Virus record (IMG/VR): IMGVR_UViG_3300027834_000284
Coordinates: 1-41,502 of that record
Length of the DNA: 41,502 bases
Source: a virus
Direction: 5' to 3' (one strand)
The notes under the pieces are model-generated. The model was not told the origin of the DNA and did no database searches. It was given only the letters and a program-made list of their open reading frames with translations. Position numbers and translations under genes: made by a program. Of this stretch, positions 20,292-40,619 are shown piece by piece (position 1 is the stretch's first letter; each line of letters begins with the position of its first letter).

Positions 20292-20327
20292 CTAATTTCG
20301 GGCTGTGTCAGTTTTTAGAATAGGACA
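20292..20327 (-). promoter_or_regulatory. Late promoter for the tail operon
   Basis: On the minus strand TGTCCTATTCT is followed by 17 nt and then GAAATTAG. It belongs to a set of eight 36-nt elements of the same layout. It directly abuts the U-tract of the terminator at 20329-20359. Confidence 0.8.
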
Positions 20328-20328
20328 T

Positions 20329-20359
20329 AAAAAAACAGGTCACTCTTTCGAGTGACCTG
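20329..20359 (-). terminator. Terminator of the KilA-N cassette
   Basis: A 10-bp stem (20336-20345 with 20350-20359) with loop TTTC is followed on the minus strand by seven Us. It ends the KilA-N transcript just before the tail-operon promoter. Confidence 0.88.
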
Positions 20360-20429
20360 CATGGTTTGGTGAACTGACAATTCAAAAATACTATTCTTTA
20401 TTAAATAATTTCAATTGATTTCGGATAGC

Positions 20430-20930
20430 TCAAGTTTTTGTTGCTTTGGCTGCTTTGTATTCTTTTTCTTTCTGAAAATACTGCTCTACCGTTTCTTTGG
20501 ATGGATTATTTAAAATTTGCTCTTTTATGTTTTCCATAGAAAGTCGAGCTTCTTCTTGAATAGCATGAGCCTCCCAATGTTTTTGATAATTACCAAAAAT
20601 TATTTCATCCATTGTAGAAAAAATCCAAACTTCAAATTCGGGACTCAACCAAGCTGCAAATTTTAAAGCTAAACGTCTGTCAAAAAATATACCAACATGA
20701 CCTCGATTATCGACAATTTCTTGATCTGAACGACCCCCATTTGGGGTTTGTTCAAGTTGCTTTTCAAGTGCCGAAATAAATTTTTTTGTATGTTCAGCTT
20801 TCATAAAATGATCAGTCCTTTTATCAAAAGCTTTTGCCATTTCGGTAGCATTTACCATTAGATTTTTATCCATCGGGTTTATTTCAAAATGGATATTAGT
20901 GTCGTTGTAATTAAATTCTAAATTTTTCAT
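20430..20930 (-). CDS. KilA-N domain protein
   Basis: Residues about 10-115 of 166 form a KilA-N DNA-binding domain: MVNATEMAKAF, then DHFMKAEHTKKFI, GHVGIFFDRRLALKFAAWLS and FEVWIF. A short helical C-terminus follows (EEARLSMENIKEQIL). KilA-N proteins in phages act as antirepressors or lethal or regulatory DNA-binding proteins. The gene forms a small cassette with the 73-aa gene upstream, with its own promoter and leader element, and is framed by terminators, as expected of a moron inserted in the late region. Confidence 0.88.
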   Translation of the reverse strand: MKNLEFNYNDTNIHFEINPMDKNLMVNATEMAKAFDKRTDHFMKAEHTKKFISALEKQLEQTPNGGRSDQEIVDNRGHVGIFFDRRLALKFAAWLSPEFEVWIFSTMDEIIFGNYQKHWEAHAIQEEARLSMENIKEQILNNPSKETVEQYFQKEKEYKAAKATKT

Positions 20931-20938
20931 GATAATAA

Positions 20939-21160
20939 TTAGTTTAAGTTAATTTTAGTGATAGACTGGGCTTGATATGCACGTTTTTCTTTGTAATAAT
21001 GTTTATTACTAGTGCATTCGTAGAAATAGATAATTAAATCTGAAGAGATTAAATTTTTCTCTTTTAGCCGATTTATCTCATCAAAAATTAATTGTTCTTT
21101 CTCAACAGATTGCTGTAAAGAAGGTTTTTTGTTGGGAAAATGTGCTTGTAGTTTTGACAT
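20939..21160 (-). CDS. Small hypothetical protein downstream of leader element A (73 aa)
   Basis: Not recognised. The N-terminus is basic and polar (MSKLQAHFPNKKPSLQQSVE), then helical (LIFDEINRLKEKNLI), with a Tyr/Cys-rich end (YFYECTSNKHYYKEKRAY). It is separated by 8 nt from the KilA-N gene. Its start lies 21 nt after the structured element at 21181-21252. Confidence 0.65.
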   Translation of the reverse strand: MSKLQAHFPNKKPSLQQSVEKEQLIFDEINRLKEKNLISSDLIIYFYECTSNKHYYKEKRAYQAQSITKINLN

Positions 21161-21180
21161 AACTCATATAATTAAAGTTA

Positions 21181-21252
21181 GCAGGAGCTGTCCAGTATAC
21201 AAACACCAGAGGTGAGAATGACTGTCGGGCGTTACCGCTACCGAGCTCCTGC
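21181..21252 (-). ncRNA. Structured leader element A
   Basis: Read on the minus strand, a 9-bp closing stem (GCAGGAGCT with AGCTCCTGC) encloses a hairpin GCG-GTAA-CGC, itself closed by CGG/CCG with a TA bulge, and a second hairpin CACC-TCT-GGTG. Copy B at 32932-33007 keeps the same closing stem and GTAA hairpin with changed base pairs. It lies between a promoter and a small gene, which suggests a cis-acting leader RNA. No known family is recognised. Confidence 0.65.
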
Positions 21253-21308
21253 CGTATTTTAAATAAGATTAATTGAGTTTTCATTGTGTGTTTGTAATTT
21301 CGACGTTG

Positions 21309-21316
21309 TAAATATA
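21309..21316 (-). promoter_or_regulatory. Promoter -7 box for the KilA-N cassette
   Basis: The minus strand reads TATATTTA, near the Bacteroidota TAnnTTTG box. The sequence just downstream (TGTAAATATAT with TTCGAC on the plus strand) is shared with the promoter of leader element B at 33059. No clear -33 box was found, so the match is partial. Confidence 0.45.
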
Positions 21317-21333
21317 TAAAAAAATATTAATAA

Positions 21334-21358
21334 TAAAAAAACACTCATATAGAGAGTG
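21334..21358 (-). terminator. Terminator of the tail-spike transcript
   Basis: On the minus strand, stem CACTC/GAGTG (21342-21346 with 21354-21358) with a 7-nt loop is followed by a U-run. It separates the tail-spike genes from the KilA-N cassette. Confidence 0.7.
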
Positions 21359-21422
21359 GGTTTGATCATGCCTATACAAATAATTATAGAGTGGCCGTTA
21401 TAGTAGAAAATGTATGTGCTTC

Positions 21423-21447
21423 AGCACTTCGGCTTCGCTCAGTGACC
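21423..21447. repeat. REP-like element, copy 2
   Basis: AGCACTTCGGCTTCGCTCAG then TGACC on the plus strand, two mismatches from the copy at 2799-2822. Here CTTCGG and CCGAAG (21427-21432 and 21446-21451) can form a hairpin. Confidence 0.6.
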
Positions 21448-21472
21448 GAAGCAAAATGATTAACTTACACCC

Positions 21473-21565
21473 ATGGAAGATTTAAAATGGTACGAAATAG
21501 CATTAATAGTAGTTGCTTACTTAATTGGCTTTTATTTGTGGGCAAGGTATAGAGGTAGGAAGTAG
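21473..21565 (+). CDS. Small single-pass membrane peptide (30 aa)
   Basis: The frame runs from ATG at 21473 to TAG at 21563-21565. It encodes a short polar start (MEDLKWYE), one strongly hydrophobic span (IALIVVAYLIGFYLW) and a basic end (ARYRGRK), consistent with an N-out, C-in membrane peptide. It is on the strand opposite to all surrounding late genes. The rest of the gap holds the REP-like repeat and a terminator. No promoter of clear consensus was found, so expression is uncertain. Confidence 0.45.
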   Translation: MEDLKWYEIALIVVAYLIGFYLWARYRGRK

Positions 21566-21584
21566 GTCGGTTAAATAATTATTT

Positions 21585-22028
21585 CTACCCAGTTATAATT
21601 AATCTCTGAATTCGCCTGTAAGAACCACCTTGGTGGAAGAATTGAATAAAATCTCCAGCACTCACATTAACTGAATAATTATCGGAATTTTTCTGTCCAG
21701 TAAGATTAACCCCTCCATAATTAACATCATTAAGCATTGTTTTAATAATTAAGTCGCTACCTACCAAGGCTGTATATCCTCGACAATTGCCGTAGTATTC
21801 GAAACATTGAATTCTAACCGATCCAGTAAAGTTGATAGGAAAAAATGCAGAATTTCCATTAGTAGATATTTGCGCAGAGTCTGCCTGTGCAGACTCATCT
21901 GGGTCGCTGACAAAATCGTCAGCGACTAAAGATCCACTACCATCATTTAGACTTCCATAAACTTCATTAATTCCTATAGATATGCCAGTTGATGCTGTCA
22001 TTAATAATGCTCTGTCTCTATGCCTCAT
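21585..22028 (-). CDS. Tail-spike accessory protein (147 aa)
   Basis: Not recognised. The sequence is beta-rich and low in charge, with GSLNDGSGSLVADDF, then SVRIQCFEYYGNCRG and a C-terminal VNVSAGDFIQFFHQGG. It resembles the receptor-binding or cap domains of tail fibres in composition. It starts inside the tail-spike gene (11-nt overlap), so it may be a separate spike subunit or chaperone. Confidence 0.6.
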   Translation of the reverse strand: MRHRDRALLMTASTGISIGINEVYGSLNDGSGSLVADDFVSDPDESAQADSAQISTNGNSAFFPINFTGSVRIQCFEYYGNCRGYTALVGSDLIIKTMLNDVNYGGVNLTGQKNSDNYSVNVSAGDFIQFFHQGGSYRRIQRLIITG

Positions 22029-23847
22029 CCCTTACGCTGATTACGTCCCATTTATCTTCTGTATAATTATAAGCAGCAATTATATACTTTACTTTTCCTG
22101 CTGTAGTTGCAGTTGGTATCGCAGAACCAACTGCTCTAAATTTGCTACCAAAACTCAATGCTCTAGTGACACCATCATCCTTAATTCTAATTACCAAAAT
22201 ATTACCTTCAGTGGCCTTCGTTGGATTATTAATCAGCAAGGCAGTGGCTAAAGCGGTCACGTTTACATTCTCATAAAGCTCTAAATTGATTGTTAAACTT
22301 GTTGCTGTAGCGATATTTTGGGTATTTGTCCACAATGAGCCAGAAGTTATTTGCACATGTCCATTAGTTCCTAATGTAGAAGCGAAAGTATTACTATTAT
22401 AGTCGTATCTCAATCCAGACGATCCATTGATAAGGTTGACCATGTATCTTCCGGAAGCATTATTTCCTGTAATTTTTGCGTTGTGTGAATTATCAAGAAT
22501 AATACAGGAAGTGGTATCAGTATTCTGCGTACACCTAATGTGATTACTCGGGCCAATTATCGGATTATTGAAGTCTTTCAAATAGATCGCAGGGTCTTTA
22601 GTATTCGACAAAAATTGATTGGCAAAAATCTGAACTGTATTGTCAATATTAACAGTATTAGTAGCTTCGAAATACATTAACACCTGACCTACGGCAATAT
22701 GATTAAGCATATTGTTACTAACAATTATCTTGTTATTATTGGGGCTACCAACCGTAGTGCTGAAGTGAAAAACTCCTCTGGTTAAGTCTTGTCCAAGCGA
22801 TTGCAGTGGACCAACGAACGACTCACAAATGTTATTATTGATAAGTATGTTAGCTGCATCCACACCTTTAATTGCCGACACGACGTTAATAAAGTAGTTG
22901 TAGGCAATGATCGAATACTCAGACCCAGCTTTCATATAAATACAAGTCTGATCAACAGTAGATGAATCGTAAGGCTGTACTTCAAAGTGACACATTTGAA
23001 TAACTACTCCACGATACACAGATGCAGAAGAACTACCATTGCATTCTATTGCAGAAGAAGTAAAATTGCTAAAATTGCATTTAAAAATAGAAGGGTATGA
23101 TGCTCCATTAATCTTAATAAGCTTATACTTATTAGCTGTATAGGTTGGTGAAGAATCGCTCGTGCCTTTGAAGTTGAAATTTTGAAGAGTGCTTCCACCA
23201 CTGCCACCTCCAGCACCTATTAATATTAGGTACTCTGCGTTCGCTGCATAGTTCATCTTAATCTCACAACCGTTCCCTTCGAAGACGACTCCTGATACCC
23301 CGGGGCAACTCAAATCTAAGTTACTTGCTAAATACTTGCCTGAGAAATTTACTTTATTATAGTTCAACGCAATTGCAGTATTAACGGCATTCTGAATATG
23401 TGTACTAGTATCTACGCTGCCATCCATAAGCCCAGTCTCGTTCCACCAGTTCACATTGAATTCGGAAACTTCAAAAACTCTTTGCCATTTACTAGTCCCA
23501 TAACCACTTCTCTCAATTCCATATCGTTGAGGATTAATAGTTATAGAGTCATTTCGCTGCCATACTCCACCGTAACACTTATTCTTAATCATAATTAATG
23601 TTGCAGTGCCGTTATAAGTTGCCAACGAACTATATGTTGGCACAACATCTACATTCATAAATGCATTCTCAAGAGTTTCTTGAATATTGTCTATCGCCTC
23701 AGCATTCGCATCAATCTCAGTAGCATGATTGTTGAAAGTGTCTCGGATCTGATTGATTTCATCAAAAGTTAATTTCTTATTTACCGGCACATCAGGTAAG
23801 TCTTTACCCAATACTTTATCTTGCCAATCTATTTTATCTGCTCCCAT
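22018..23847 (-). CDS. Tail spike with a right-handed parallel beta-helix
   Basis: This 609-aa protein has a short N-terminal virion-anchor-like region and coiled coil (about 25-65), then a pectate-lyase-like parallel beta-helix (about 130-500) with repeated short strands such as NILINNNICES, NKIIVSNNML and NAKITGNNASG. The domain starts with a TSTHIQNAVNTAIALNYNKV segment that marks such helices. It ends with a beta-rich cap. Spikes of this type bind and often cleave surface polysaccharide. No catalytic residues can be assigned by eye. Confidence 0.85.
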   Translation of the reverse strand: MGADKIDWQDKVLGKDLPDVPVNKKLTFDEINQIRDTFNNHATEIDANAEAIDNIQETLENAFMNVDVVPTYSSLATYNGTATLIMIKNKCYGGVWQRNDSITINPQRYGIERSGYGTSKWQRVFEVSEFNVNWWNETGLMDGSVDTSTHIQNAVNTAIALNYNKVNFSGKYLASNLDLSCPGVSGVVFEGNGCEIKMNYAANAEYLILIGAGGGSGGSTLQNFNFKGTSDSSPTYTANKYKLIKINGASYPSIFKCNFSNFTSSAIECNGSSSASVYRGVVIQMCHFEVQPYDSSTVDQTCIYMKAGSEYSIIAYNYFINVVSAIKGVDAANILINNNICESFVGPLQSLGQDLTRGVFHFSTTVGSPNNNKIIVSNNMLNHIAVGQVLMYFEATNTVNIDNTVQIFANQFLSNTKDPAIYLKDFNNPIIGPSNHIRCTQNTDTTSCIILDNSHNAKITGNNASGRYMVNLINGSSGLRYDYNSNTFASTLGTNGHVQITSGSLWTNTQNIATATSLTINLELYENVNVTALATALLINNPTKATEGNILVIRIKDDGVTRALSFGSKFRAVGSAIPTATTAGKVKYIIAAYNYTEDKWDVISVRDEA

Positions 23848-23852
23848 AATTC

Positions 23853-27438: not shown

Positions 27439-27555
27439 TCAATCGTTATCGCATGTTATATCATTTCGATCACAAGTAATGCTGTTATTGTCGCATGTTA
27501 GAGATGCAATAATGTTATTCAGCTGACTTTTTAATGAAGAAAAAAAACGTATCAT
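27439..27555 (-). CDS. Small hypothetical protein (38 aa)
   Basis: The frame from ATG at 27555 to TGA at 27439-27441 encodes a helical start (MIRFFSSLKSQLNNIIASL) and a Cys/Asp/Asn-rich tail with three TCDxN-like repeats. It follows the late promoter at 27560-27595 with a leader of only 4 nt after the box, so it may be translated from an almost leaderless message. The stop lies 2 nt before the ATG of the next gene. Confidence 0.5.
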   Translation of the reverse strand: MIRFFSSLKSQLNNIIASLTCDNNSITCDRNDITCDND

Positions 27556-27559: not shown

Positions 27560-27595
27560 CAAATTTCGATTTAAGTGATTTTTTAAAATAGGACA
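27560..27595 (-). promoter_or_regulatory. Late promoter for the lysis and spike unit
   Basis: TGTCCTATTTT, 17 nt, then GAAATTTG on the minus strand. The start codon of the 38-aa frame lies 4 nt past the box. Confidence 0.82.
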
Positions 27596-27600: not shown

Positions 27601-28545
27601 TTACATCCCAACAATTGACTTAGTTACTACCAATCCTTTTCGTTCTATTGTTTCTGGAGCAGAGTACTCTTCAAACTTATCAGCATTGGCCACAATTACC
27701 TTCATGGCCATCTTTAAGTATTCTTCACCTTCAATTTGCTTATTAGCTTTAGTTCGAGTAAGGAATTCATTCACCTTTAAATTGATGTTGGTTACAGTCT
27801 TTTCATAAGGCAGTTCATCAAATCGCATGTGCATTCCTTTTCCATCCATCACGAACATTCCATTGTCCACTGTTCTCATAACAGTAAATGCCACAATGGC
27901 CTGCTGCAGTAATATTTTTACTTCTTTTCGTTCGTCTACTGTCTGATCATCCTTTAATGCCTTCAGTAATTCTTTACCAATAGGAGCAACGATAAACTGA
28001 TCTTCCACCGATTTGATATTCGGTTTCATCGCGATAAATGTCTGGCGACTATTGAAGATGTAGTAATATTTATTAAAGATTGAAGTCTTATTCACTAGCA
28101 GATCCTTGAACACAGAATAAGAATCAGAGCCTACCCATGGTCCAAATTTGGCAGCGTTATCCTCCATAAATTCCAAGAGCTCATCCAGAGCTTTATGACC
28201 TGCAGATTTAAACGATCGTTGCAATTCTTTAAACTGCTTATCTGTAGCAGGAGAAGAGGAAGTTCCATCAACTACATGAACACCTGAGTCAGTAATCTGT
28301 ACTGCTCCAATTGGCAGATACAAATAGAAACCTAGATTAGCAATTGCTTCTTGAGCAAGCACCAACGCTTCAAGCACTATTGGATCTGAAACTGGGTCAT
28401 CAAAAATGGCCAACTGATCTTTACCGATCAGTGGCTTCAAAAATTCACGCTCAGCTGATCGCAGATAACTTTTAATGTTATCATGAGTCAGTGAGTTATT
28501 CACAGAAATATACTCTTTGAGAGTAGCAATATCCTTTATAATCAT
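27601..28545 (-). CDS. Head-tail adaptor-position protein (314 aa)
   Basis: Not recognised by motif. The N-terminus (MIIKDIATLKEYISVNNSLT) and helical composition recall conserved Bacteroidota prophage proteins found beside the portal; a link to a named family is from memory and uncertain. It overlaps the portal gene by 4 nt. A head-tail connector role is inferred from position. Confidence 0.55.
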   Translation of the reverse strand: MIIKDIATLKEYISVNNSLTHDNIKSYLRSAEREFLKPLIGKDQLAIFDDPVSDPIVLEALVLAQEAIANLGFYLYLPIGAVQITDSGVHVVDGTSSSPATDKQFKELQRSFKSAGHKALDELLEFMEDNAAKFGPWVGSDSYSVFKDLLVNKTSIFNKYYYIFNSRQTFIAMKPNIKSVEDQFIVAPIGKELLKALKDDQTVDERKEVKILLQQAIVAFTVMRTVDNGMFVMDGKGMHMRFDELPYEKTVTNINLKVNEFLTRTKANKQIEGEEYLKMAMKVIVANADKFEEYSAPETIERKGLVVTKSIVGM

Positions 28546-29897
28546 ATCTGTGCAGCTTTTTGAGTTCCTGTTGGGTTTTTATCTAGAGTAGTCAATACAG
28601 TGTCTTCAAATCCACCTACTAATTTTTCATCCCAGCCATTATATTCTTGAATAAATTCCCATGGTTCTAGTGTAGTCTCTCTATCTGTTTTTTTCAAAGC
28701 GGAAAGAATCAACCAAGCTTCTCTCTTATCACTTCCTGATCCTGCACCAAGTTTTCCGCCAGGTATTCCAGCACCAATTAGTGAAGGATCCACACCGATA
28801 CCAGTTAACACTTCCTGATTTCCTGCTGATGTATCTTGTAAGTGAGCTCCATCAGGGTTTCCTTTATCGATAGTTGTAATTTTTAATCCTGGTTGAGGAT
28901 TTCCTGCCTCATCCTTATAAATCATGGACATGATGCTTTTACCACCATTTTCCACACCTCGAAGCGAGGTGTCTAAATCTTCAATAAAAGTTGTTCTTAG
29001 CTCTTCTCTTTTCTTTGGAGTGAAAGTCTGCCAATCCTCTTTGTATTTTCGCTCAAAAAATTCTTCAAAAACCTCAATGTGGTAATTGATATTGATCTTA
29101 TCATCAATGAAAGCTTTCTTCAATTTTGGAATAGAGTTTGCAATATCCAACCAACCACTATTATAAACTGAATGCCATTCCATTTCAGGATAATAACTCT
29201 CATCAATAAGTGGATAAAAGATTGGACGGATGAAATTGGTAATTCTGTTTTTCTTACAGTACTCTTTCACTTCTTCAGCACTCCAATAGCTATCAATTAA
29301 TTGAACTGACTCCACATACTTAGAAGCTTCAGAGACACCATCAGCCCATTTTGAAGAGATGAAAACTCGCTTTATCGATTTAGTACCTTCATCCATAATC
29401 TCAAATCGACAATTAGCAGTCTTTTGTCGCTTGATACGGTTGATTTTTTTGTAATCTTTTGACAATACATATTCAGGAAAAGCAATACCAAAGTACTCGA
29501 GATCAGTAATCGATTCATTCCAGAATCTTTTCATCTGATTTCGTTTCCAGAATTGATTGATATCGGGATACTCATGAAAGCATTTTTGTTCTATAATTCT
29601 CTTTCCATTATCATCATGCTTCTCCTCAGCTAAAATAAAACCTGATCCATAGTGCGCTTTTCTAGAAGTTCTTAATCCAGAACGTGCTGCACTATTCGGT
29701 TTAATTTTCTTCATTAACTGCTGAGGAAAATCATTATTAGTTCCCCATGAAGCAACTCTACCAACTGTATCTTCAGATTCTATAATAATAGAAGTAACTG
29801 TTGAATCACCTTTGTTAGAATTAGAAGAAGCAAAAGAAACTAAAGCTTTTCGTGCTCCACCTGCAATAGCTATATCTCCATAAATCGCTACACTCAT
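28542..29897 (-). CDS. Portal protein
   Basis: The start used is ATG at 29897 (MSVAIYGDIAIAGG), 2 nt after the stop of the upstream gene; an in-frame ATG 12 codons earlier would overlap that gene. The protein is 451 aa. Its C-terminal part has the portal pattern: LTGIGVDPSLIGAGIPGG, a Gly/Ser loop, SGSDKREAWLILSAL, then EPWEFIQEYNGW. A central helical stem region precedes it. It would form the dodecameric ring through which DNA enters the capsid. Confidence 0.8.
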   Translation of the reverse strand: MSVAIYGDIAIAGGARKALVSFASSNSNKGDSTVTSIIIESEDTVGRVASWGTNNDFPQQLMKKIKPNSAARSGLRTSRKAHYGSGFILAEEKHDDNGKRIIEQKCFHEYPDINQFWKRNQMKRFWNESITDLEYFGIAFPEYVLSKDYKKINRIKRQKTANCRFEIMDEGTKSIKRVFISSKWADGVSEASKYVESVQLIDSYWSAEEVKEYCKKNRITNFIRPIFYPLIDESYYPEMEWHSVYNSGWLDIANSIPKLKKAFIDDKININYHIEVFEEFFERKYKEDWQTFTPKKREELRTTFIEDLDTSLRGVENGGKSIMSMIYKDEAGNPQPGLKITTIDKGNPDGAHLQDTSAGNQEVLTGIGVDPSLIGAGIPGGKLGAGSGSDKREAWLILSALKKTDRETTLEPWEFIQEYNGWDEKLVGGFEDTVLTTLDKNPTGTQKAAQI

Positions 29898-29898
29898 A

Positions 29899-30240
29899 TT
29901 AATATTGAATTGTTTTACCGTTAATTGATACAATCAATCGGATGTGAATTTTTTTTATTTCACCATTTTGAAGCTGCAGATTTCTCGTTCTGTTTTTAAA
30001 ATGGTTCGGTTTCTTATTGACTATTTCAGTTTTATGAATAGATGCTAGTAAAGAATGTTTACTAGCATCTTTTTTTCTTGTAGTCGATTTAACAACTTGC
30101 TTATATTCTACTAATCGACCACCTCTTTTTGAATTTCGATTTAATGTCCTGAAAACAATATCGAAAGGAAATGAATTCCCATCCTTATCAACTCTATCGA
30201 TTACCGCAATGGCATCATAAAACGACATTCCTTTTTCCAT
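29899..30240 (-). CDS. Small basic protein before the portal (113 aa)
   Basis: Not recognised. It contains FDIVFRTLNRNSKRGGRLVE and a basic C-terminal half. It is the first gene after the late promoter at 30245-30280 and directly precedes the portal, with a single base between stop and portal start. It might be a DNA-binding or assembly factor. Confidence 0.62.
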   Translation of the reverse strand: MEKGMSFYDAIAVIDRVDKDGNSFPFDIVFRTLNRNSKRGGRLVEYKQVVKSTTRKKDASKHSLLASIHKTEIVNKKPNHFKNRTRNLQLQNGEIKKIHIRLIVSINGKTIQY

Positions 30241-30244: not shown

Positions 30245-30280
30245 CTAATTTCGCTCCGCTTGATTTTTTAAAATAGGACA
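30245..30280 (-). promoter_or_regulatory. Late promoter for the portal unit
   Basis: TGTCCTATTTT, 17 nt, then GAAATTAG on the minus strand. The start codon of the 113-aa gene lies 4 nt past the box. The 300-nt gap to the terminase gene otherwise holds AT-rich sequence, a hairpin at 30320-30342 (GTTTTCATT with AATGAAAAC) and a 14-mer at 30488-30501 shared with the promoter at 32629. Confidence 0.82.
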
Positions 30281-30541: not shown

Positions 30542-32053
30542 TTAGATAGTCGTTGGGAGTGTCCAACTGTCTCGCTCAGGCTTTAGCTTATCCTTGTAGA
30601 TATCGTAGAGTGGGATGTCGAACGCATCAGATAGGTGAGTGGTGTGCTCTTGTTTCATACTTAGATTCTTCTCATCCTTCTTTACCTTTTCAATACCATT
30701 CTTACCATCAGCTGCTTCAGCTCTTTCAAGTGAGATTATAAGATCAGGATTGTTATGCTTATTGATCTCAATCATTGGGAACCTTGATGATGTTGCCTTT
30801 AACATTGAGTTGATCAATATAAACTTATCATTGTGAGGAGCCACAGGTCTACGCTTACTCTTATCGTACACCGTCCATCCTTTAGCCTTGAGTATTCGCG
30901 CCAACATATCACCATATGTTTCATTGGTACCTCTCAACAAACGTGCATTACCATCATGACCATAGTAGAGGTGTACCACCTTATTAGGCAGTGGTTGATA
31001 GTATTCATCGAATAGGTTGATTAGATCTTCTAGGTCAGCGGTATCACTTGATTGGCTTGCCCACATAGACTTTAGCACTCTGTATCGATCAGGTAGTTTC
31101 TGACTGATAACCGCCCCAATAAAGTTACCCCAGTCAATAGAAAGTATGAGTGGCAGACCTTTATTGATATCATTGTCCTGTCTACAGTTAAATGATGCTG
31201 TGGTATATTCAGCTGTAATAGACTCTAGATAGTCATTGTCGTAGTCTGTATAGTAGTGCTTATCAGGTTTAAGTTGAGGATAGAAACCATTTAGTATTTC
31301 TTTGGGGCGAATATTAAGAATCTCAGCATTATAATACAATTCAGATGGTGATTCATCCTTCATTTCGTCAAACCATTCTTGCCGTAAGTTTAACTTATTG
31401 ACCAATGCAGATGCTTTGATAAATGCATACTTTTTAGGCTTCTTTTTGGCTATTTCCTCCATATCAGTGAACCATCTACCTTTCTTAGTGATAGGAGTGG
31501 AGGATGCATATATTTCAGCACCAAGAAGTGTTGCGTTCTCAAATCTAGCTTCTTTTGCTCTATTGGTAGTTTTTACATTTGCAAATAACTTTTCAGGATC
31601 AAATAAAGCAGCCTCATCACCTAGAATGCCAAAAGAGTTTAACCCTCTACCGGAATTGGGATTATCTAAAGAGACTAATTGAAAAACTGATCCATTAGAA
31701 AAATGGATGATATTATCCCATTTATCAGGTGCATATATAGGCTCAGCAAAACCATAACGAGCTCCATTTTTACCCACTACGTAATCATATCCTTCAAAAA
31801 TGCCTAATACTGCTAAACCTTTTTTTGTTGATGGTAATGTTCTAGATAGTATTTGTTGATAGGTAGATCCAACCAAGGCAAATGATGCGCCGGGCATTTG
31901 TTTCACCATTTCTTTCATAAAAAAAGCCAAGATGAATGATTTACCTGTTCCACGACCCCATTCAAGGTAGATCTTTGTTTTCTTTAACACAGTAACTGCT
32001 AATACAGCTGCTAATTGAGCAGCATTTAGAACAACCTCTAAAAATCTACTCAT
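30542..32053 (-). CDS. terL: Terminase large subunit
   Basis: This 503-aa protein has Walker A GRGTGKS (33-39), Walker B FGILGDEAA (D146, E147), and the nuclease motif LILSIDWGN with D307, with a further acid near the C-terminus (LSDAFD). The ATPase drives DNA into the prohead and the RNase H-like nuclease cuts it. It overlaps the small subunit gene by 8 nt. Confidence 0.93.
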   Translation of the reverse strand: MSRFLEVVLNAAQLAAVLAVTVLKKTKIYLEWGRGTGKSFILAFFMKEMVKQMPGASFALVGSTYQQILSRTLPSTKKGLAVLGIFEGYDYVVGKNGARYGFAEPIYAPDKWDNIIHFSNGSVFQLVSLDNPNSGRGLNSFGILGDEAALFDPEKLFANVKTTNRAKEARFENATLLGAEIYASSTPITKKGRWFTDMEEIAKKKPKKYAFIKASALVNKLNLRQEWFDEMKDESPSELYYNAEILNIRPKEILNGFYPQLKPDKHYYTDYDNDYLESITAEYTTASFNCRQDNDINKGLPLILSIDWGNFIGAVISQKLPDRYRVLKSMWASQSSDTADLEDLINLFDEYYQPLPNKVVHLYYGHDGNARLLRGTNETYGDMLARILKAKGWTVYDKSKRRPVAPHNDKFILINSMLKATSSRFPMIEINKHNNPDLIISLERAEAADGKNGIEKVKKDEKNLSMKQEHTTHLSDAFDIPLYDIYKDKLKPERDSWTLPTTI

Positions 32054-32624
32054 CTTCTTCAGTTTCTTCTATTTCTTCAAATTCTGCATCAACTGTTAGG
32101 TCATTAAAATCTAGAACACCACTTCCCAATTGAGCCAATATAGCATTTGAAACTTCCCTAGGAATAGACATCTTGATTGGCTTATCATCTAACTTATCAG
32201 GATTGAAATTAATCGTAGTATCCTTGTCGATTTCAGAATACTTGCCCATTAATTCTAGAGCCTTACCAATAGCTTTTAAATCTTTAGCTTTTACAGCCAT
32301 CAATAAAAAACGATGTGAATATTCAAGCAGAATAGCCAATGATCCTTCACGCTCAGCTTTCATTACATTACCAAATAATCGCTCAGCATTTTTTAGATCT
32401 CGATATGCCTGAGCTCGGCTCAATTCATACTTTTCCATGAGCACATTTGCAGCTTGTTCTCGAGAATGGAAATTTTGACGTAATGCAAAAGCAGCCAACC
32501 AACGATCTTTTAGTTCGTTTTGCTTATCGGTGAGAGGATATTTTGCAGGATCTTTATAATATGCATATAGCCTATCGAAAGAGGTATCCCCTGTTTTTAT
32601 TCTAGGTAAATGATTTATTGACAT
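32046..32624 (-). CDS. Terminase small subunit
   Basis: At 192 aa, the protein has a helix-turn-helix-like region (about 50-85: SREQAANVLMEKYELSRAQA) followed by a helical oligomerisation part and a very acidic tail (EEIEETEEDE). It would recognise the packaging site and recruit the large subunit, encoded immediately downstream. The ATG lies 4 nt after the -7 box of the late promoter at 32629, so its message may be leaderless. Confidence 0.8.
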   Translation of the reverse strand: MSINHLPRIKTGDTSFDRLYAYYKDPAKYPLTDKQNELKDRWLAAFALRQNFHSREQAANVLMEKYELSRAQAYRDLKNAERLFGNVMKAEREGSLAILLEYSHRFLLMAVKAKDLKAIGKALELMGKYSEIDKDTTINFNPDKLDDKPIKMSIPREVSNAILAQLGSGVLDFNDLTVDAEFEEIEETEEDE

Positions 32625-32628: not shown

Positions 32629-32664
32629 CAAAAGTGGCAATTGTCAATTTATTAAAATAGGACA
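32629..32664 (-). promoter_or_regulatory. Late promoter for the terminase unit
   Basis: TGTCCTATTTT, 17 nt, then CACTTTTG on the minus strand. Part of its spacer (ATTGACAATTGCCA) recurs at 30488 on the other strand and, with one change, in the promoter at 35122. Confidence 0.82.
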
Positions 32665-33087: not shown

Positions 33088-34347
33088 CCATTCTTCTTCA
33101 GATAATAACTTGCCATTCTTTTTGATTTCAAACTCAAGTTTATTATCAATCATATAATTCAACCATCTTCTAACATCCACATCTACATAAACAGGATCTA
33201 ACTCCATCCCATAGCAGTTCCTCCAAGTCTGCTCAGATGAAATTAGTGTAGAACCTCCTCCCAAGAATAAATCTCCAATTATATCCTTCTGTTTTGAACT
33301 ATTTTTAATCAAATAATTAATTATCTCAATCGGCTTCATCGTTGGATGATCTGCATTTCTAGTTGGCCTATCAAACTCTAGAACTGTGGTTTGTTTTCTG
33401 TCAGTATACCAGGAGTGAGCAGCACCTTCTTTCCATCCATAAAGTATTGGTTCATGCTTCCAATGGTAATCTTGTCTACCCATTACAAGTGAATTCTTGA
33501 CCCAAATAAGGCACTGAGCTAATTTAAATCCCGAATCCTTCAATGCATTTCTAAAATTGGCTCCTTCAGAATCTGCATGAAAAACATAAATAGGTGCTCC
33601 TGGTCTTGAATTCAAAAAACTCTCTTGATAGAACATGTACAAAAAAGTATAGAATGAATCGTTGTCCATTTTATCATTCTGAATCTTCAACTTCTCCTTG
33701 GTGCCTCCTTCATAATTTACATTGTATGGAGGATCTGTCACTATCTGATCAAACTGCTTTCCATCCATCAGCTTAGCATAATCTTCTGCCTTAGTGCTAT
33801 CACCACAAAGCACTCGATGATGCAATTTCTTCTGTTTACTGATAAGATCATAAATATCTCCTGAAATGGATATCGAATCCTTTGGTGGAGTTAAATCTAC
33901 TTCACTTTCTTCCTCTTGTTTTAATTCATCAGGAATAATGTCTTCAGGAACGTTTATTTCATTCAAGTCTAATCCAAGATCCATTAGATCAATGTCTGCA
34001 AAACACTCCTCAAGAATATCAACATCCCAATATCCAACTGATATATTGGAAGTGATGTTATATTCCTTGAACTCCTGATCTGTTAGCCTTCTATTTGGAA
34101 CTCTAACATCGATTAGTTCTTCACCACGATCTAGATCCATCAAAACCTTCACCCTTTGATGCCCGGCTATGATTACCATATCAGTATTAACTGCAGGTAT
34201 TTCTGCAAGATTATACTTCTCGAGACTATTTTTTAATTTCTGAAGTCGTTCAGGAGTTATTTTCCTTGGATTATATTCACATGGAACAAGATCCTTTACT
34301 TTTATCCTTTCAGTATGCCATTCTAATGGCTGCAATAATTCATTCAT
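33067..34347 (-). CDS. ParB-like nuclease domain fused to a DNA methyltransferase
   Basis: Residues about 10-100 of 426 form a ParB/Srx-like domain (PCEYNPRKIT, then IIAGHQRVKVL). A linker (130-155) leads to an N6/N4 methyltransferase with catalytic DPPYNV at 205-210 and, later, the AdoMet motif GDLFLGGGST near 360, the beta-class motif order. It would methylate adenine or N4-cytosine. Such fusions are common beside phage packaging genes, perhaps to mark DNA. Together with the Dam-like enzyme it gives the phage two methylases. It overlaps the upstream gene by 4 nt. Confidence 0.9.
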   Translation of the reverse strand: MNELLQPLEWHTERIKVKDLVPCEYNPRKITPERLQKLKNSLEKYNLAEIPAVNTDMVIIAGHQRVKVLMDLDRGEELIDVRVPNRRLTDQEFKEYNITSNISVGYWDVDILEECFADIDLMDLGLDLNEINVPEDIIPDELKQEEESEVDLTPPKDSISISGDIYDLISKQKKLHHRVLCGDSTKAEDYAKLMDGKQFDQIVTDPPYNVNYEGGTKEKLKIQNDKMDNDSFYTFLYMFYQESFLNSRPGAPIYVFHADSEGANFRNALKDSGFKLAQCLIWVKNSLVMGRQDYHWKHEPILYGWKEGAAHSWYTDRKQTTVLEFDRPTRNADHPTMKPIEIINYLIKNSSKQKDIIGDLFLGGGSTLISSEQTWRNCYGMELDPVYVDVDVRRWLNYMIDNKLEFEIKKNGKLLSEEEWLKYMDS

Positions 34348-35117
34348 TTCCCATTAATTATTTCGTTTAATTCCTGTAACTCCATTTCATGCTGCAGTAG
34401 CTTCGCTTCAGCTCTTTCAATCGATACCTCTAATTTTGTCTTGTTAGATTTTGACAACTTCGATTTTGAATGTCGCTTTAAGCTCTCCACTTTCTTGCCG
34501 TATTTAGTAACCGAAATCCGTTTATTGTTGCGTGCCTGTACTCGTTGCTCAGGCGTTAAATCTGCATAGGTTCTAGGCTTTATATCTAGCACCACCTTAT
34601 GCGTCACGTAGTAATCCAACACTTTCTGAGCAGTTTCAATTCCATCGAATAGTTCTTCAATCTCAAGACAAAGATCGAGTGCTGCACTTTCTTCATCAGC
34701 ATGCAATCGAGTCAATCGACTATGTGCAGAAATGGCCAATTGATAATCATTTCGTTGCTTAATGGAAATAGGATGAAGATCCGGATGCAGCTCATTCAAC
34801 CGATAGAATGCACTCGATTTTGACTGATCAGGAGATGGATCAGGAGATGGACCAGGAGAAGCAACAGGACTTTTAGTTGCTGAAGTATATACACTTTTAA
34901 CTTTTTGAGACTTTTCTTTATTCTCCGATGCCAGGAATAAAGGTTTTGATAGTTTTCTAAACTTACTAAGCTCATAGCTCAATTTATCAGCATTTCCTTT
35001 AGACTCTTTTCTAGAAAATAACCGAACCAAATTAACGCTGTGCCCTTTCAAGCTCCGATACAACTCAACACCTTGCTGATAATCGCAGCCATTTTCAAAC
35101 CATTCATTTACATCCAT
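34344..35117 (-). CDS. Hypothetical phage protein with a Pro/Ser linker (257 aa)
   Basis: Not recognised. A basic N-terminal part is joined by a repetitive linker (SPGPSPDPSPDQS, near residue 90-105) to a helical C-terminal half with RNDYQLAISAHSRLTRLHAD and a final coiled coil (about 225-255). The ATG lies 4 nt after the box of the late promoter at 35122-35157, so its mRNA may be leaderless. It is coupled to the ParB-methyltransferase by ATGA. Confidence 0.62.
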   Translation of the reverse strand: MDVNEWFENGCDYQQGVELYRSLKGHSVNLVRLFSRKESKGNADKLSYELSKFRKLSKPLFLASENKEKSQKVKSVYTSATKSPVASPGPSPDPSPDQSKSSAFYRLNELHPDLHPISIKQRNDYQLAISAHSRLTRLHADEESAALDLCLEIEELFDGIETAQKVLDYYVTHKVVLDIKPRTYADLTPEQRVQARNNKRISVTKYGKKVESLKRHSKSKLSKSNKTKLEVSIERAEAKLLQHEMELQELNEIINGK

Positions 35118-35121: not shown

Positions 35122-35157
35122 CAAAAATGGCAATTGTGAATTCTTTATAATAGGACA
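35122..35157 (-). promoter_or_regulatory. Late promoter for the ParB-methyltransferase unit
   Basis: TGTCCTATTAT, 17 nt, then CATTTTTG on the minus strand. It starts where the U-tract of the terminator at 35157-35192 ends. Confidence 0.82.
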
Positions 35158-35210: not shown

Positions 35211-35615
35211 CTAACTTAAGTAGTTGCTATTCCAAAATGAATAATTGGATCTAGAATCATGATATCTATATTTATTGACCGATACCGGATACTTTATTTT
35301 CGAATAGATACTCCTATAATCTAATTCATCTAGATAACCGGATGACATCGGATATTTCAATCCGGCATCTAATTCTACATTTACATTCCCCACTGAGGAG
35401 AAGCACACTTCAGGTGCATCAATTTCAATGATCGATACATCATTTACAACCGAAGCTGTAAAATCTGTAATCTCGAAATTGATTACATCTGTTAACATTG
35501 GAGCATTATGCTCAACAATTACTACATTCTCTTTGCCGATTTTCTCGACTAATTCTGTGGCCATGCAGGCGGATCCAAATCCGACAATCAACACAAGCCC
35601 TAACAACTTTTTCAT
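35211..35615 (-). CDS. Secreted protein of unknown function (134 aa, moron)
   Basis: The N-terminus MKKLLGLVLIVGFGSACMAT is a signal peptide. The Cys before MATE gives a weak lipobox (GSAC), so either signal peptidase I cleavage after CMA or lipidation is possible. The mature part is beta-rich with no motif, ending in a Tyr/Ser-rich tail. The gene stands alone between a promoter plus terminator on one side and its own terminator on the other. Such an isolated exported protein suggests superinfection exclusion or lysogenic conversion, but this is inference. Confidence 0.72.
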   Translation of the reverse strand: MKKLLGLVLIVGFGSACMATELVEKIGKENVVIVEHNAPMLTDVINFEITDFTASVVNDVSIIEIDAPEVCFSSVGNVNVELDAGLKYPMSSGYLDELDYRSIYSKIKYPVSVNKYRYHDSRSNYSFWNSNYLS

Positions 35616-35648: not shown

Positions 35649-35684
35649 CAAATTTGACAATTACCTAATCCTGAAAATAGGACA
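35649..35684 (-). promoter_or_regulatory. Late promoter for the secreted-moron gene
   Basis: TGTCCTATTTT, 17 nt, then CAAATTTG on the minus strand, with a leader of about 33 nt. It abuts the U-tract of the terminator at 35684-35717. Confidence 0.82.
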
Positions 35685-35717
35685 AAAAAAAACTCGAGCA
35701 GATCTGCTCGAGTTTTT
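35684..35717. terminator. Terminator of the head unit (perfect 20-bp palindrome)
   Basis: CTCGAGCAGATCTGCTCGAG (35693-35712) is flanked by A-runs on one side and T-runs on the other, so it can act in both directions. It ends the unit that contains the capsid genes. Confidence 0.9.
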
Positions 35718-36754: not shown

Positions 36755-36776
36755 AATTTCTATTGTTAATTAAAAA

Positions 36777-37724
36777 TTAAACCCACTTAGATACATACAC
36801 CAAAGGATTGTACCCAAAACCTAAACCTTCCCACCAATCGGTCATCAAGTAAATAGCTTTTTTACTTTCCTCAATTCTTGGCTTCTTCATGCCGTTAACT
36901 CTTCTCAAGTACAAAAAGTTATCGTTTGGAGTAGACCAGATGTATTTCTCACCAGCCATCGATGGTAAACCAACCAATTCAACATTAGTAAAGTCAACCA
37001 CAGGCTTGTTTGGATCGTAGTTTACATCAGTACCATGAGTATTTCTTTTGTCCTGGTGATACCATTTCAAAATTTGTGGATCCATGTAAACTCTCTTTTT
37101 TACTCTGGTAACCAAAGGATCAAAACCATCCACAAACTCTTCAATCATGTCAAAAGCATTCGCCTTAGTAATTGCAGCAGACAATGTAATCTCATTCATA
37201 GAAGAATCTGCAATACCTGCATCTAACATTCCTTTAATACCATCAATCGCTTTGATTGTCTCTCCAGGAGAATCAGCAACAGGAGTCTCATAGGTACCTT
37301 TAAAGTATCCTTGTGTTTCCATATCATGTTCTCTTTGTGGTAGAACTTCATCTTCCAACATGTACTTTACCAAAGGAGAATTCTTCCTCTCATCACCTTC
37401 TAAGCCCTGTAAAAATCCTAACCAAGAACCTTCACAATCATCTGGATACAACTCAAGGTCAATCATTAGATGTCTCAATCTAATCTCATTGGCTTTGAAT
37501 ACTACATCACCTTTGTGAACGAACTTCTTTTGAAATTGCTGAACAATTTCACCCATAATTACATTAGAGAATCTATAAATCTCACCATCGTGAATAATAG
37601 GTTTTGCATAAGAAGGAGTTTCAGTCTTATGTCTCAACTTGGTCAAAAGCCTATTCATGTTCTGACCTTCAGGATTATAATATGCACCAAACTGTGCAAC
37701 AATGTCTGTTTTATCTATTGCCAT
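36777..37724 (-). CDS. Major capsid protein
   Basis: The 315-aa product follows a protease/scaffold gene and has a capsid-like composition: an N-arm with helical LLTKLRHKTETPSYA, then beta strands and WSTPNDNFLYLRRVNGMKKP near the C-terminus. No sequence signature alone proves it; the operon order (protease, scaffold, capsid) makes it the best choice. It should be the most abundant virion protein. Confidence 0.75.
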   Translation of the reverse strand: MAIDKTDIVAQFGAYYNPEGQNMNRLLTKLRHKTETPSYAKPIIHDGEIYRFSNVIMGEIVQQFQKKFVHKGDVVFKANEIRLRHLMIDLELYPDDCEGSWLGFLQGLEGDERKNSPLVKYMLEDEVLPQREHDMETQGYFKGTYETPVADSPGETIKAIDGIKGMLDAGIADSSMNEITLSAAITKANAFDMIEEFVDGFDPLVTRVKKRVYMDPQILKWYHQDKRNTHGTDVNYDPNKPVVDFTNVELVGLPSMAGEKYIWSTPNDNFLYLRRVNGMKKPRIEESKKAIYLMTDWWEGLGFGYNPLVYVSKWV

Positions 37725-37741
37725 TACAAAAAATTATTTGA

Positions 37742-38173
37742 TTAATTATTCATAGCTGCAGATATGTCATAGCCTGCAACCATATTATTATCTTCACTGC
37801 CTGCGTTATCAGGACTATCAATCGTTTGAGTGGTTTTACCACCATCTTTACTACCGTACTCTTTCACAAGTGCCGATAAAGCAACAATACCTTCCTCATT
37901 ACTCATTTTTTCAGCACCTTCCACTTCAGCTTCTTTCAAAGCATTTTGCACTGCAGTGGTTACAGCAGCACTTGTATTGGTTAGCTCGGTAATTTTTGCA
38001 GTATTGGCAGTTGCCAATGTTGCAGCATCTGAAATAGCCTTATCATTTTCTGATAGCCTATTTTCAATTAAAGAAGCCTGAGCCTCTGTAAGAATGACTC
38101 CATCCTTGGTTTCATCATCCTCAAATTTGTTCCCAAGAACAGCCTCGATCAAAGGCAGATTTGATTTACTCAT
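37742..38173 (-). CDS. Nested scaffold protein (internal start)
   Basis: The in-frame ATG at 38173 lies at the domain border between protease and scaffold and is preceded by a Ser/Asn/Thr-rich linker. The product would be 143 aa, helical and acidic, typical of a scaffold. It is predicted from architecture alone, since Bacteroidota starts often lack a Shine-Dalgarno sequence. Confidence 0.5.
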   Translation of the reverse strand: MSKSNLPLIEAVLGNKFEDDETKDGVILTEAQASLIENRLSENDKAISDAATLATANTAKITELTNTSAAVTTAVQNALKEAEVEGAEKMSNEEGIVALSALVKEYGSKDGGKTTQTIDSPDNAGSEDNNMVAGYDISAAMNN

Positions 38174-39058
38174 TGTTTTGCGTTTTGAGTTATTATTAGT
38201 TGAATTTGTACTCGGTTTAGATAATGAAAAAACCTTATCAATAGCAGATTGCAATGTTCCAAGATCATCTATAAGGCCTTCTTTGAGAGCATCTTTTGGA
38301 TTAAAAATATCACCCTCTAATGCTTTTTCAGATATCTGTGGTCGATACCTTTTCATGTCATCATGAAACTGCTGTGCAGATGGATTAAGCAACTTCTCAA
38401 CGAATGGACGCTCATCACCATCTTTCATTGCTCTTGTTTGCTTATTCTTTTCAGGAGATATATCAGCATACCACTCATTAATGGTTGCACCCTTCTTTTT
38501 AAGGATACCCTCTACATTCACTGAATAATGCATAGACCCAATGCAGCCAATAAAATCAGCATGTTTATGAGCGATAATAAAATCTGTGCCTGCTGAAAAG
38601 TAATATGCAGCAGATCCAATCATATCCTTAGTGAAAACACCTGTCGGCTTTGGGTAAGTATTCAAGTATTCTGCGAACTCAGCGTTACCTGATCCTTGGC
38701 CACCGCCTGAATTTACATCGAAAACAACTCCTACTACATTAGAATCATTTTTCCATTCATCCATTAAGTTCATGATAGATTGAGTTCCTTTAGGACCACA
38801 ATTCTGATCATACTTAAAAATAGGATGATGGATATTTATAACAGCTACCTGACCGCTAGAATTGGATGCAGTAGTATTTCTTGAATTTTGTAATTCACTA
38901 GAAAAAGAAAAGTAGTGAGTGGTGGTATTCAATGAGTCTTTCAATAAAGACATATCTCCACCGTTAATGATGTTAAATAGAAATGGATATAACTGACTCT
39001 TTGCAGAGTCAATAAACATCCAATTACTGCTTAATAAAGAAAAAAAGTTCTTATCCAT
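37742..39058 (-). CDS. S49 (SppA-like) prohead protease with C-terminal scaffold
   Basis: Residues about 70-270 form an S49 peptidase: VVGVVFDVNSGGGQGSG (oxyanion region), then MIGSAAYYFSAG with catalytic Ser149 in place of the SppA SGGYY segment. The last 143 residues, starting at Met296 (MSKSNLPLIEAVLGNKFEDD), form a helical scaffold-like domain. A separate product from that internal ATG (38173) is likely, as in the lambda C/Nu3 pair. The protease would remove scaffold and mature the prohead. It is the first gene after the late promoter at 39084. Confidence 0.87.
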   Translation of the reverse strand: MDKNFFSLLSSNWMFIDSAKSQLYPFLFNIINGGDMSLLKDSLNTTTHYFSFSSELQNSRNTTASNSSGQVAVINIHHPIFKYDQNCGPKGTQSIMNLMDEWKNDSNVVGVVFDVNSGGGQGSGNAEFAEYLNTYPKPTGVFTKDMIGSAAYYFSAGTDFIIAHKHADFIGCIGSMHYSVNVEGILKKKGATINEWYADISPEKNKQTRAMKDGDERPFVEKLLNPSAQQFHDDMKRYRPQISEKALEGDIFNPKDALKEGLIDDLGTLQSAIDKVFSLSKPSTNSTNNNSKRKTMSKSNLPLIEAVLGNKFEDDETKDGVILTEAQASLIENRLSENDKAISDAATLATANTAKITELTNTSAAVTTAVQNALKEAEVEGAEKMSNEEGIVALSALVKEYGSKDGGKTTQTIDSPDNAGSEDNNMVAGYDISAAMNN

Positions 39059-39083
39059 CTGTAATGCCTTTTTTCGGACAATA

Positions 39084-39119
39084 CAAACTTAGAGTGGTGT
39101 TACTTTTTAAAATAGGACA
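39084..39119 (-). promoter_or_regulatory. Late promoter for the head unit
   Basis: TGTCCTATTTT, 17 nt, then TAAGTTTG, a full Bacteroidota -7 consensus, on the minus strand. The terminator at 39121-39149 lies directly upstream. Confidence 0.85.
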
Positions 39120-39120
39120 C

Positions 39121-39149
39121 AAAAAAAGCCACTCTAAAGAGTAGCTTTT
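39121..39149 (-). terminator. Terminator of the 172-aa gene
   Basis: An imperfect stem (AAAAGC-ACTC with GAGT-GCTTTT, one C-A mismatch, loop TAAA) is followed on the minus strand by a run of Us. Confidence 0.75.
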
Positions 39150-39178
39150 AAATCAATCAATTGAAAAATCAAACTAAA

Positions 39179-39697
39179 TTATTCCATTTCCAAACCTCCA
39201 TCACCTCCACCATCTTCTGCCACAGGAGTAACAATATACACCGGTTTTTGTGGGATATCACCAAACACAGAAACTCTTATCCCATGGCCATCTTCTTGTC
39301 TCTTACCATTAATAGGTTGATACGAAAATTCTAAAGGGAATAATTTCGAACCATATATCTTTCTCATTCCGGAATGATTAGTAGCAACCAATAAAAAATC
39401 TTTATTCATGTACTTATTCATATAATCATCAATAGATTCCGTTTGAACAGTAATATCAAAATCTGCAGAAATCTTATAAACAATACCATTTTTAGTCTTA
39501 CTCCTGGGCTCACTAATTGTTATATTCTCACCCATTGGCAAAAAGTCCAATACCTCTGTGGGATTAGAAAAAACAACATGATGCGCATTTTTATTCGTCA
39601 ATAGGTCTGGGCATAGATCTACCTCTTCAGTAGTGTACAACTCCACAGAAAACCATCCGCCTAAATCTTCATGGTTGGTAACATTGGCATCACTCAT
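39179..39697 (-). CDS. Hypothetical virion-like protein (172 aa)
   Basis: Not recognised. Beta-rich with FSVELYTTEEVDLCPDLL, then GENITISEPRSKTKNG and an acidic Gly-rich tail (EDGGGDGGLEME). Composition fits a small tail or head protein. It is preceded by a degenerate late-promoter block at 39706-39716. Confidence 0.6.
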   Translation of the reverse strand: MSDANVTNHEDLGGWFSVELYTTEEVDLCPDLLTNKNAHHVVFSNPTEVLDFLPMGENITISEPRSKTKNGIVYKISADFDITVQTESIDDYMNKYMNKDFLLVATNHSGMRKIYGSKLFPLEFSYQPINGKRQEDGHGIRVSVFGDIPQKPVYIVTPVAEDGGGDGGLEME

Positions 39698-39705
39698 ATT
39701 ATATC

Positions 39706-39716
39706 ATTTTAGGACA
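39706..39716 (-). promoter_or_regulatory. Degenerate late-promoter block
   Basis: TGTCCTAAAAT on the minus strand keeps TGTCCTA and the preceding U-run, but no NAnnTTTG box lies 17 nt downstream; that place is inside the next gene. Confidence 0.4.
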
Positions 39717-39766
39717 AAAAAAACATTAGCAAAAATTGTCATACTCCTAATCCTTACTGTCATTGA

Positions 39767-40276
39767 CTATGCAGCGTCATCATTTTTAACGGCCTTATTA
39801 TTGTCAGATTCTCGATATCTACTGTAGTCTCTATAGATCGATTCAGGTTCTATTTCATTCTCAAAAATCTCATGAACTTTCAAAAATTGTAATATCGCTC
39901 GATTTATTTTCTGCTTATTATAAGAGTTATGTTCCTCATTGTAAAAGAATAGATTAGAACCAAGAGTAACATCTATATAAGAATACAATTCGCTGTTGAA
40001 TACTTTCTGAATCATACTCTCAAGCATCCTAATTTTGGTCGGAGAAATATCAAACCCAATTCGAGACACCACAGATGCCGGAATAACTAATTGGTAACAA
40101 TTTTTCTTATCAAATTTCACATTCCCTCTCCGATATTCCTTATCCATTAACTCAATTATGTATTTTCCCAACCAAGAATTAGTACTAACTGTATAATTAG
40201 TACCATATTTCTTGATTAAGAACTTTTTTAGATAAGGTTTTAGAGGTAAATTGAATGTTACAGATCCTGATTCCAT
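39767..40276 (-). CDS. Hypothetical protein (169 aa), first late unit
   Basis: Not recognised. It begins MESGSVTFNLPLKPYLKKFL, with mixed helices and a basic middle (YRRGNVKFDKKNCYQLVI), and looks soluble. It shares the first late unit with the 85-aa gene. A regulatory or DNA-binding role is possible, without motif support. Confidence 0.62.
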   Translation of the reverse strand: MESGSVTFNLPLKPYLKKFLIKKYGTNYTVSTNSWLGKYIIELMDKEYRRGNVKFDKKNCYQLVIPASVVSRIGFDISPTKIRMLESMIQKVFNSELYSYIDVTLGSNLFFYNEEHNSYNKQKINRAILQFLKVHEIFENEIEPESIYRDYSRYRESDNNKAVKNDDAA

Positions 40277-40304
40277 AGATAGAGATGAAAGTTTCCTAAA
40301 AGTA

Positions 40305-40562
40305 CTACTTTTTAGTATTACTTACCTCTTTTTTTTCGTAATTCTTACCGCTTATCATCTTGGTATAACACATTTTAGTGTTACTTTCTTCGTTCAATAC
40401 TTCAAAATAGTGGACACCTTTTTTTTGAAGATCCAACACTGCCTGATCTGCAGATGCTGCAGTACCATCAGTTTTTACCAATTTCATTTTATGCGCTGAT
40501 TTACCACCAACTACCTTTGATTCTCTCTCTGATACTATGATCAATTTCGATTCTTTTGCCAT
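40305..40562 (-). CDS. Hypothetical protein (85 aa), first late unit
   Basis: Not recognised. Basic and polar (MAKESKLIIVSERESKVVGG, then VHYFEVLNEES), ending in a Lys-rich tail (NYEKKEVSNTKK). It is the promoter-proximal gene of the first late unit and lies 21 nt from the box of the promoter at 40584. Confidence 0.62.
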   Translation of the reverse strand: MAKESKLIIVSERESKVVGGKSAHKMKLVKTDGTAASADQAVLDLQKKGVHYFEVLNEESNTKMCYTKMISGKNYEKKEVSNTKK

Positions 40563-40583
40563 AATTTCTTATTTTTAGATAAG

Positions 40584-40619
40584 CAAACTTAGTTTCTCCA
40601 CAATTTCTAAAATAGGACG
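40584..40619 (-). promoter_or_regulatory. Late promoter for the first late unit
   Basis: CGTCCTATTTT, 17 nt, then TAAGTTTG on the minus strand. The box is identical to that at 39084. Confidence 0.83.

Follow-up and report, generated by a model that had tools for sequence, protein, structure and literature searches.

Eight repeated elements in a temperate phage contig are probable activator-dependent late promoters

The late activator C of phage Mu, the middle activator MotA of T4 and the late activator Ogr of P2 are phage proteins that bind at or near the -35 position and recruit the host holoenzyme to a set of promoters. GerE acts as a class II activator with sigma K. For ComA of Bacillus subtilis, a member of the LuxR/NarL family, action near -35 and contact with sigma A have been measured (PMC4797271). 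In Bacteroidota, promoters of the primary sigma factor consist of a -33 element, TTTG, and a -7 element, TAnnTTTG (PMC6847099), and our literature search, with most subscription journals outside its reach, found no late-promoter system described for temperate Bacteroidota phages. We analyzed the virus record IMGVR_UViG_3300027834_000284 over its positions 1 to 41,502 (the window, 41,502 nucleotides), the minus strand of which carries eight copies of a 36-nt element that places an 11-bp box, TGTCCTATTTT, at a fixed distance from a -7 box. We computed the architecture of these elements, their late-strand placement, restriction to phages and conservation, and the covariation of their box with the recognition helix of a phage LuxR/NarL-type protein. 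From these patterns, we judge it likely that the eight are activator-dependent late promoters whose box is bound by this protein.

The window, a contig of a temperate tailed phage, has a serine recombinase gene at 1–1617, an early operon that runs downward from 10949 and includes a primase gene at 3598–7077, and late genes, among them those for head protease, terminase, portal and tape measure, at 13.6–40.6 kb; its relatives suggest a host in Flavobacteriaceae. A pattern scan recovered all eight 36-nt elements on the minus strand, each at the coordinate given by an earlier sequence-only reading of the window. As putative late promoters they are:

40584–40619, minus strand: late promoter 1, box at -40 to -30, 17-nt spacer, -7 box TAAGTTTG; upstream of 40305–40562
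39084–39119, minus strand: late promoter 2, -7 box TAAGTTTG; directly after terminator hairpin 39124–39149, upstream of head protease 37742–39058
35649–35684, minus strand: late promoter 3, -7 box CAAATTTG; directly after terminator hairpin 35688–35717, upstream of 35211–35615
35122–35157, minus strand: late promoter 4, -7 box CATTTTTG; ATG of 34344–35117 4 nt past the box (implied leaderless)
32629–32664, minus strand: late promoter 5, -7 box CACTTTTG; ATG of 32046–32624 4 nt past the box (implied leaderless)
30245–30280, minus strand: late promoter 6, -7 box GAAATTAG; ATG of 29899–30240 4 nt past the box (implied leaderless), then portal-like 28542–29933
27560–27595, minus strand: late promoter 7, -7 box GAAATTTG; ATG of the 38-aa open reading frame 27439–27555 4 nt past the box
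20292–20327, minus strand: late promoter 8, -7 box GAAATTAG; after a hairpin and T-run, upstream of 19782–20273 and tape measure 16832–19789

The gene at 32046–32624 stands before the terminase large subunit gene and is presumed to encode the small subunit. The pattern GTCCTATT-N20-A..TT.G gave 8 matches in the window and 0 in 100 dinucleotide shuffles, and a scan of the plus strand and of positions 1–20290 found no site. The block GTCCTATT alone, with one mismatch allowed, occurred at chance level and was not overrepresented; the signal therefore lies in the exact block at its fixed spacing, and for scanning the block was always combined with the spacing to the -7 box, never used by itself. 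As had been read, the core GTCCTATT is invariant across all eight sites; position 1 of the block is T in seven, the exception being a C at 40619, while the dinucleotide that follows the core is TT in six, CT at 20326 and AT at 35156. In the -7 box, A2, T5, T6 and G8 are equally invariant and T7 is present in six of eight, so that these parts of the earlier description stand while its form NAnnTTTG is better written NAnnTT[TA]G; position 1 is T in only two window sites. The four invariant positions bear out the proposed match to the Bacteroidota primary-sigma element TAnnTTTG, and at every site the TGTCCTATTTT block takes the place of the usual -33 TTTG, again as proposed. The downstream genes, which include those for head protease, terminase, portal and tape measure, are indeed late ones, and the early region has no site. 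Several of the putative promoters lie directly 3′ of a terminator hairpin and T-run. A promoter scan of the sigma-70 type is uninformative for Bacteroidota.

A second element, ACAATTGCCA, occurs at 32635–32644 and 35128–35137, in the spacer adjoining the -7 box in the promoters of the presumed terminase small subunit gene and of 34344–35117, and stands inverted in the spacer of 35649–35684 (minus strand), before a gene for a small secreted protein. Relatives carry it too, and another clade has ACACTTTCCA; the spacer element could serve as the operator of a second regulator.

Scanning viral contigs with the full pattern, we found further records with several copies on the same strand. Many single matches of this first scan were isolated or in high-GC sequence and probably due to chance, and our conclusions use records with several same-strand sites. 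As some records had been selected for containing the motif, those picked by a homolog of the window's LuxR/NarL-type protein (below, LuxR) alone serve as an independent check: 13 of these 28 had clustered exact sites, and most of the others had a variant box or an incomplete contig. Within whole bacterial genomes the matches cluster in prophage DNA; the LuxR-positive contigs and genomes chosen irrespective of the motif that have it clustered in the prophage are G051, G053, G054, G060, G061, G063, G064, G070, G071, G073, G076, G077 and G078. Over the records analyzed, 165 sites lay on the terminase strand and 11 on the other. A stricter pattern matched 5 times in 99 other Flavobacteriaceae genomes, a count that leaves out the prophage-bearing center genome, against about 4 for a reversed control; the pattern is thus at background level in these genomes, which answers the refuting condition set by the sequence-only reading, an equal occurrence of the 36-nt pattern in random host DNA. 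The distribution supports the view that a widespread group of temperate phages of Flavobacteriia uses elements like these eight as its late promoters.

The relatives also resolve the anatomy of the element. We numbered positions as in F. johnsoniae, where the G of the -7 element is -5 and many transcripts start 4 or 5 nt past that element (PMC6847099). In the consensus of the 106 distinct sites, TGTCCTATTTTAA, positions -40 to -30 are strongly conserved and the spacer is free, followed by A-11, T-8, T-7 and G-5; the positions used for selection are conserved by construction, those outside the selection being T-40, T-32, T-30 and A-29/A-28. Between the eight orthologous promoters of the window and of G036, identity was 94% in the block and 92% in the -7 box, compared with 54% in the spacer. 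In an unsupervised search for gapped k-mers, GTCCTA or a shifted form of it, 28 nt before A..TT[TA]G, ranked first or near first in most relatives. The 106-site profile showed no paired half-site upstream of the box, and neither the CGT box at -10 of extracytoplasmic function (ECF) sigma factors nor the -24/-12 elements of sigma-54 (as given in PMC9723704).

An ATG followed by at least 30 open codons stood exactly 4 nt past the -7 box at 48 of 129 distinct sites, while every other offset was found at most 7 times. In the window this holds for four of the eight sites, those at 35122, 32629 and 30245 (reading frames of 257, 192 and 113 aa) and at 27560 (38 aa). With the G of the -7 box at -5, the A of such an ATG is +1, and late mRNAs from these sites, half of those in the window, would start on it and be leaderless. 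In F. psychrophilum, 5.5% of mRNAs are leaderless (PMC9723704). The fixed 4-nt distance of the ATG and the fixed spacing to a sigma-type -7 box, together with the late-strand bias and the turnover of the spacer, speak against the elements being packaging, recombination or RNA-processing sites. Exact block repeats in intergenic DNA, often directly after terminators, would fit such sites as well, and yet we give a nonpromoter function hardly any credence.

The box itself varies among relatives while keeping its position. It is TGTCCTTTT or TGTCCTTTC in the phages Leef and Ingeline and in G056, G057, G065, G068, G069 and G220, TGTCCTAAAA in G046, TGTCACAA in phage laban6-1, TATCACAA in G075 (which has the same prophage as G059), TGTCACAG in G090 and TGTAACA in G194; phage 6H has TGTCTTAA with a spacer of 16 nt. 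In G072 and G062, the latter at a contig edge, we recognized no clear box. In the TGTCCTTTT phages (L156, L212, L157 and L205–L207), the -7 box frequently reads CATCTTGC/CAAATTGC or TAATATTG in place of TAnnTTTG and so resembles the TAnnTTGY motif of F. psychrophilum (PMC9723704).

Within the single host genus Flavobacterium, the boxes are TGTCCTAT in G061/G063, TGTCACAA in laban6-1, TGTCTTAA in 6H and TATCACAA in G059/G075. As phages of one genus use at least four boxes, the protein reading the box is very likely phage encoded. Together with the shared architecture and the background-level counts in hosts, this variation supports the proposal of a phage late-promoter family that needs a phage activator. 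On the same facts, direct reading of the box by a host sigma factor, primary or alternative, as another form of -33 element with no activator involved, is very unlikely: the pattern is at background in the 99 Flavobacteriaceae genomes, and the boxes differ among phages sharing a host genus. In favor of such reading are the extension of the box over the -33 position, the resemblance of the -7 element to that of the host, and the several classes of promoter motif in F. psychrophilum, one of which, TAnnTTGY, is the class that the -7 boxes of the TGTCCTTTT phages resemble (PMC9723704).

The best candidate for the late activator, as far as sequence and model comparison can tell, is encoded in the early region:

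9679–10269, minus strand: candidate late activator, early gene for a 196-aa LuxR/NarL-type protein; phrog_10300

Residues 134–188 of the product form a C-terminal GerE helix-turn-helix (HTH; Pfam GerE, 3.5e-10, above the cut-off), and in the AlphaFold2 (AF2) model, with a predicted local distance difference test score (pLDDT) of 90, the HTH matches GerE/NarL structures at Z 10–12. The N-terminal domain has no Pfam match and, modeled alone (pLDDT 85), gave no credible match in the PDB, although a weak or absent match does not show a new fold. Within Flavobacteriaceae, genomes of Arenibacter, Tenacibaculum, Polaribacter, Flavobacterium and others encode homologs, as do the Helgolandviridae and Duneviridae phages Leef, Ingeline, 6H and laban6-1, the window protein being 48% identical to that of Leef and 30% to that of Ingeline. 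Every record of the window-motif family with its early region present has one; the gene adjoins the primase gene, at which the records G015 and G046 end. The alignment of divergent LuxR proteins (A2) had no stretch conserved enough for scanning.

Leef and Ingeline carry LuxR genes that have been proposed to switch between lysogeny and lysis by quorum sensing (PMC8776804), in which case late timing would be set in some other way. The LuxR name and the presence of integrase genes alongside these genes in the families Helgolandviridae and Duneviridae (PMC8776804) would suit that proposal. The domain content gives it no support: with Pfam at E ≤ 0.01, the 35 homologs contained no autoinducer-binding, receiver or PAS domain, whereas 31 contained the GerE HTH. 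The box-helix covariation described below also speaks against such a switch, and we consider it highly improbable.

To relate protein and box, we compared residues within the stretch that aligns with the recognition helix of NarL. All 29 phages that have several TGTCCT boxes carry D or N after T-[LF/Y], and all five with other boxes carry H or T there (then Q or L), so that loss of TGTCCT coincides with a helix change from D/N to H/T and all 34 phages agree (Fisher 3.6e-6, ancestry not corrected for). This rule was derived from the same data and not fixed beforehand; phages fetched after it agreed, namely G220 (N-T, TGTCCTTT) and G194 and G090 (H-L, other boxes). In the tree of N-terminal domains, G075 groups with G071 and G073, which have TGTCCTAT, and far from laban6-1 and 6H; it has nonetheless T-Q in the recognition helix and TATCACAA boxes. 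More than one lineage has therefore changed both together, and helix and box appear to have switched jointly in about two independent lineages.

A number of observations weigh against reading of the box by the LuxR protein. Independent switches of box and helix are few, only about two, and the difference between TGTCCTAT and TGTCCTTT does not track the recognition helix, the window and G065 sharing TLDFHK. LuxR-family proteins usually bind repeats as dimers, and only a single asymmetric box is seen here. G072 has a LuxR homolog with no recognized box. LuxR is a core gene of the group, and its co-occurrence with the box therefore partly reflects ancestry. The record of FPSV-F7 (L162, MK764440) keeps TGTCTTAA boxes of the 6H type and is without 6H's LuxR homolog and primase; the phage may depend on a resident prophage, or the record may be incomplete. 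Finally, the Bacteroides phage BT-TP2 and the human-gut phage scaffold MT835542 carry two to three TGTCCTTT sites, and a search of both for a LuxR/GerE protein found none; their boxes may be served by another activator. The sites are:

17977, 25811 and 32316 of BT-TP2 (L160): TGTCCTTT boxes at the usual distance from the -7 box
18384, 7562 and 429 of MT835542 (L161): TGTCCTTT boxes at the usual distance from the -7 box

Two points would favor the alternative that the elements are phage late promoters where a host regulator or a phage protein other than LuxR reads the box and LuxR has a different function: the boxes without LuxR in these two phages, and the weakness of a co-occurrence with a gene ancestral to the group. 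We regard this alternative as unlikely, as the box and the LuxR recognition helix change jointly in two lineages and the remaining early DNA-binding candidates of the window are less widespread (p82 in 7 and hth94 in 3 of the compared records, LuxR in 16); the differing boxes of phages from one host genus speak against a host regulator.

With the LuxR protein as reader, the system would work as follows. The early operon, under a repressor, would be transcribed from an ordinary -33/-7 promoter and make the LuxR/NarL-type protein (9679–10269), which would bind the 11-bp box TGTCCTATTTT at about -40 to -30, the place expected for an activator touching sigma. Host RNA polymerase with the primary sigma factor would recognize the -7 box NAnnTT[TA]G, and as the -33 TTTG is absent, the protein, most likely a class II activator, would replace the contact of sigma region 4 with -33 and so fire all late operons together. 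Binding of the box, contact with sigma or another part of RNA polymerase, activation and late timing are what we infer from the patterns above. The ordinary promoter, read from the sequence for comparison, is:

11010–11040, minus strand: early promoter, TTTG, 19 nt, TATGTTTG

Its spacer, between divergent genes, contains a perfect 16-bp palindrome, AGTATAAATTTATACT, at 11017–11032, a candidate repressor operator. Directly 3′ of the repressor-like gene, 11474–12211 (plus strand) encodes a protein with a C-terminal BRCT domain.

The proposal names a candidate activator and a precise box, and its natural box/helix pairs are testable at once with reporters. It gives the LuxR genes of flavophages a different reading and allows late operons to be annotated from sequence, and the box/helix pairs could provide orthogonal expression switches in a phylum that has few. 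Leaderless late mRNAs, if true, would stand out in a phylum without Shine–Dalgarno sequences, with late genes translated in a mode unlike that of most host genes. It is possible, and we put it forward tentatively, that the system is general to temperate Flavobacteriia phages, with orthogonal boxes arising via helix changes and many of the late mRNAs leaderless.

Compared with the Bacteroidota primary-sigma promoter, the elements have a matching -7 element, probably at an equal distance from the start, but carry an 11-bp phage-specific box in place of -33, fixed at 17 nt from the -7 box. Like the activator promoters of proteobacterial phages, they are copies of one box at a fixed distance from the -7 element, in the window with all eight on the minus strand and none in the early region; they differ from those of Mu C, T4 MotA and P2 Ogr in the LuxR/NarL-type candidate, the Bacteroidota host, the single asymmetric box and the many implied leaderless mRNAs. 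With the LuxR/NarL/GerE class II activators, the candidate shares the HTH fold (Z 10–12 to GerE/NarL) and a putative site overlapping the -35 region, whereas it lacks a match to a receiver or autoinducer domain, has a phage-specific N-terminal domain and would serve phage late genes. The LuxR genes of Leef and Ingeline are direct homologs of its gene, assigned to quorum sensing before (PMC8776804) and here to the probable activation of late genes.

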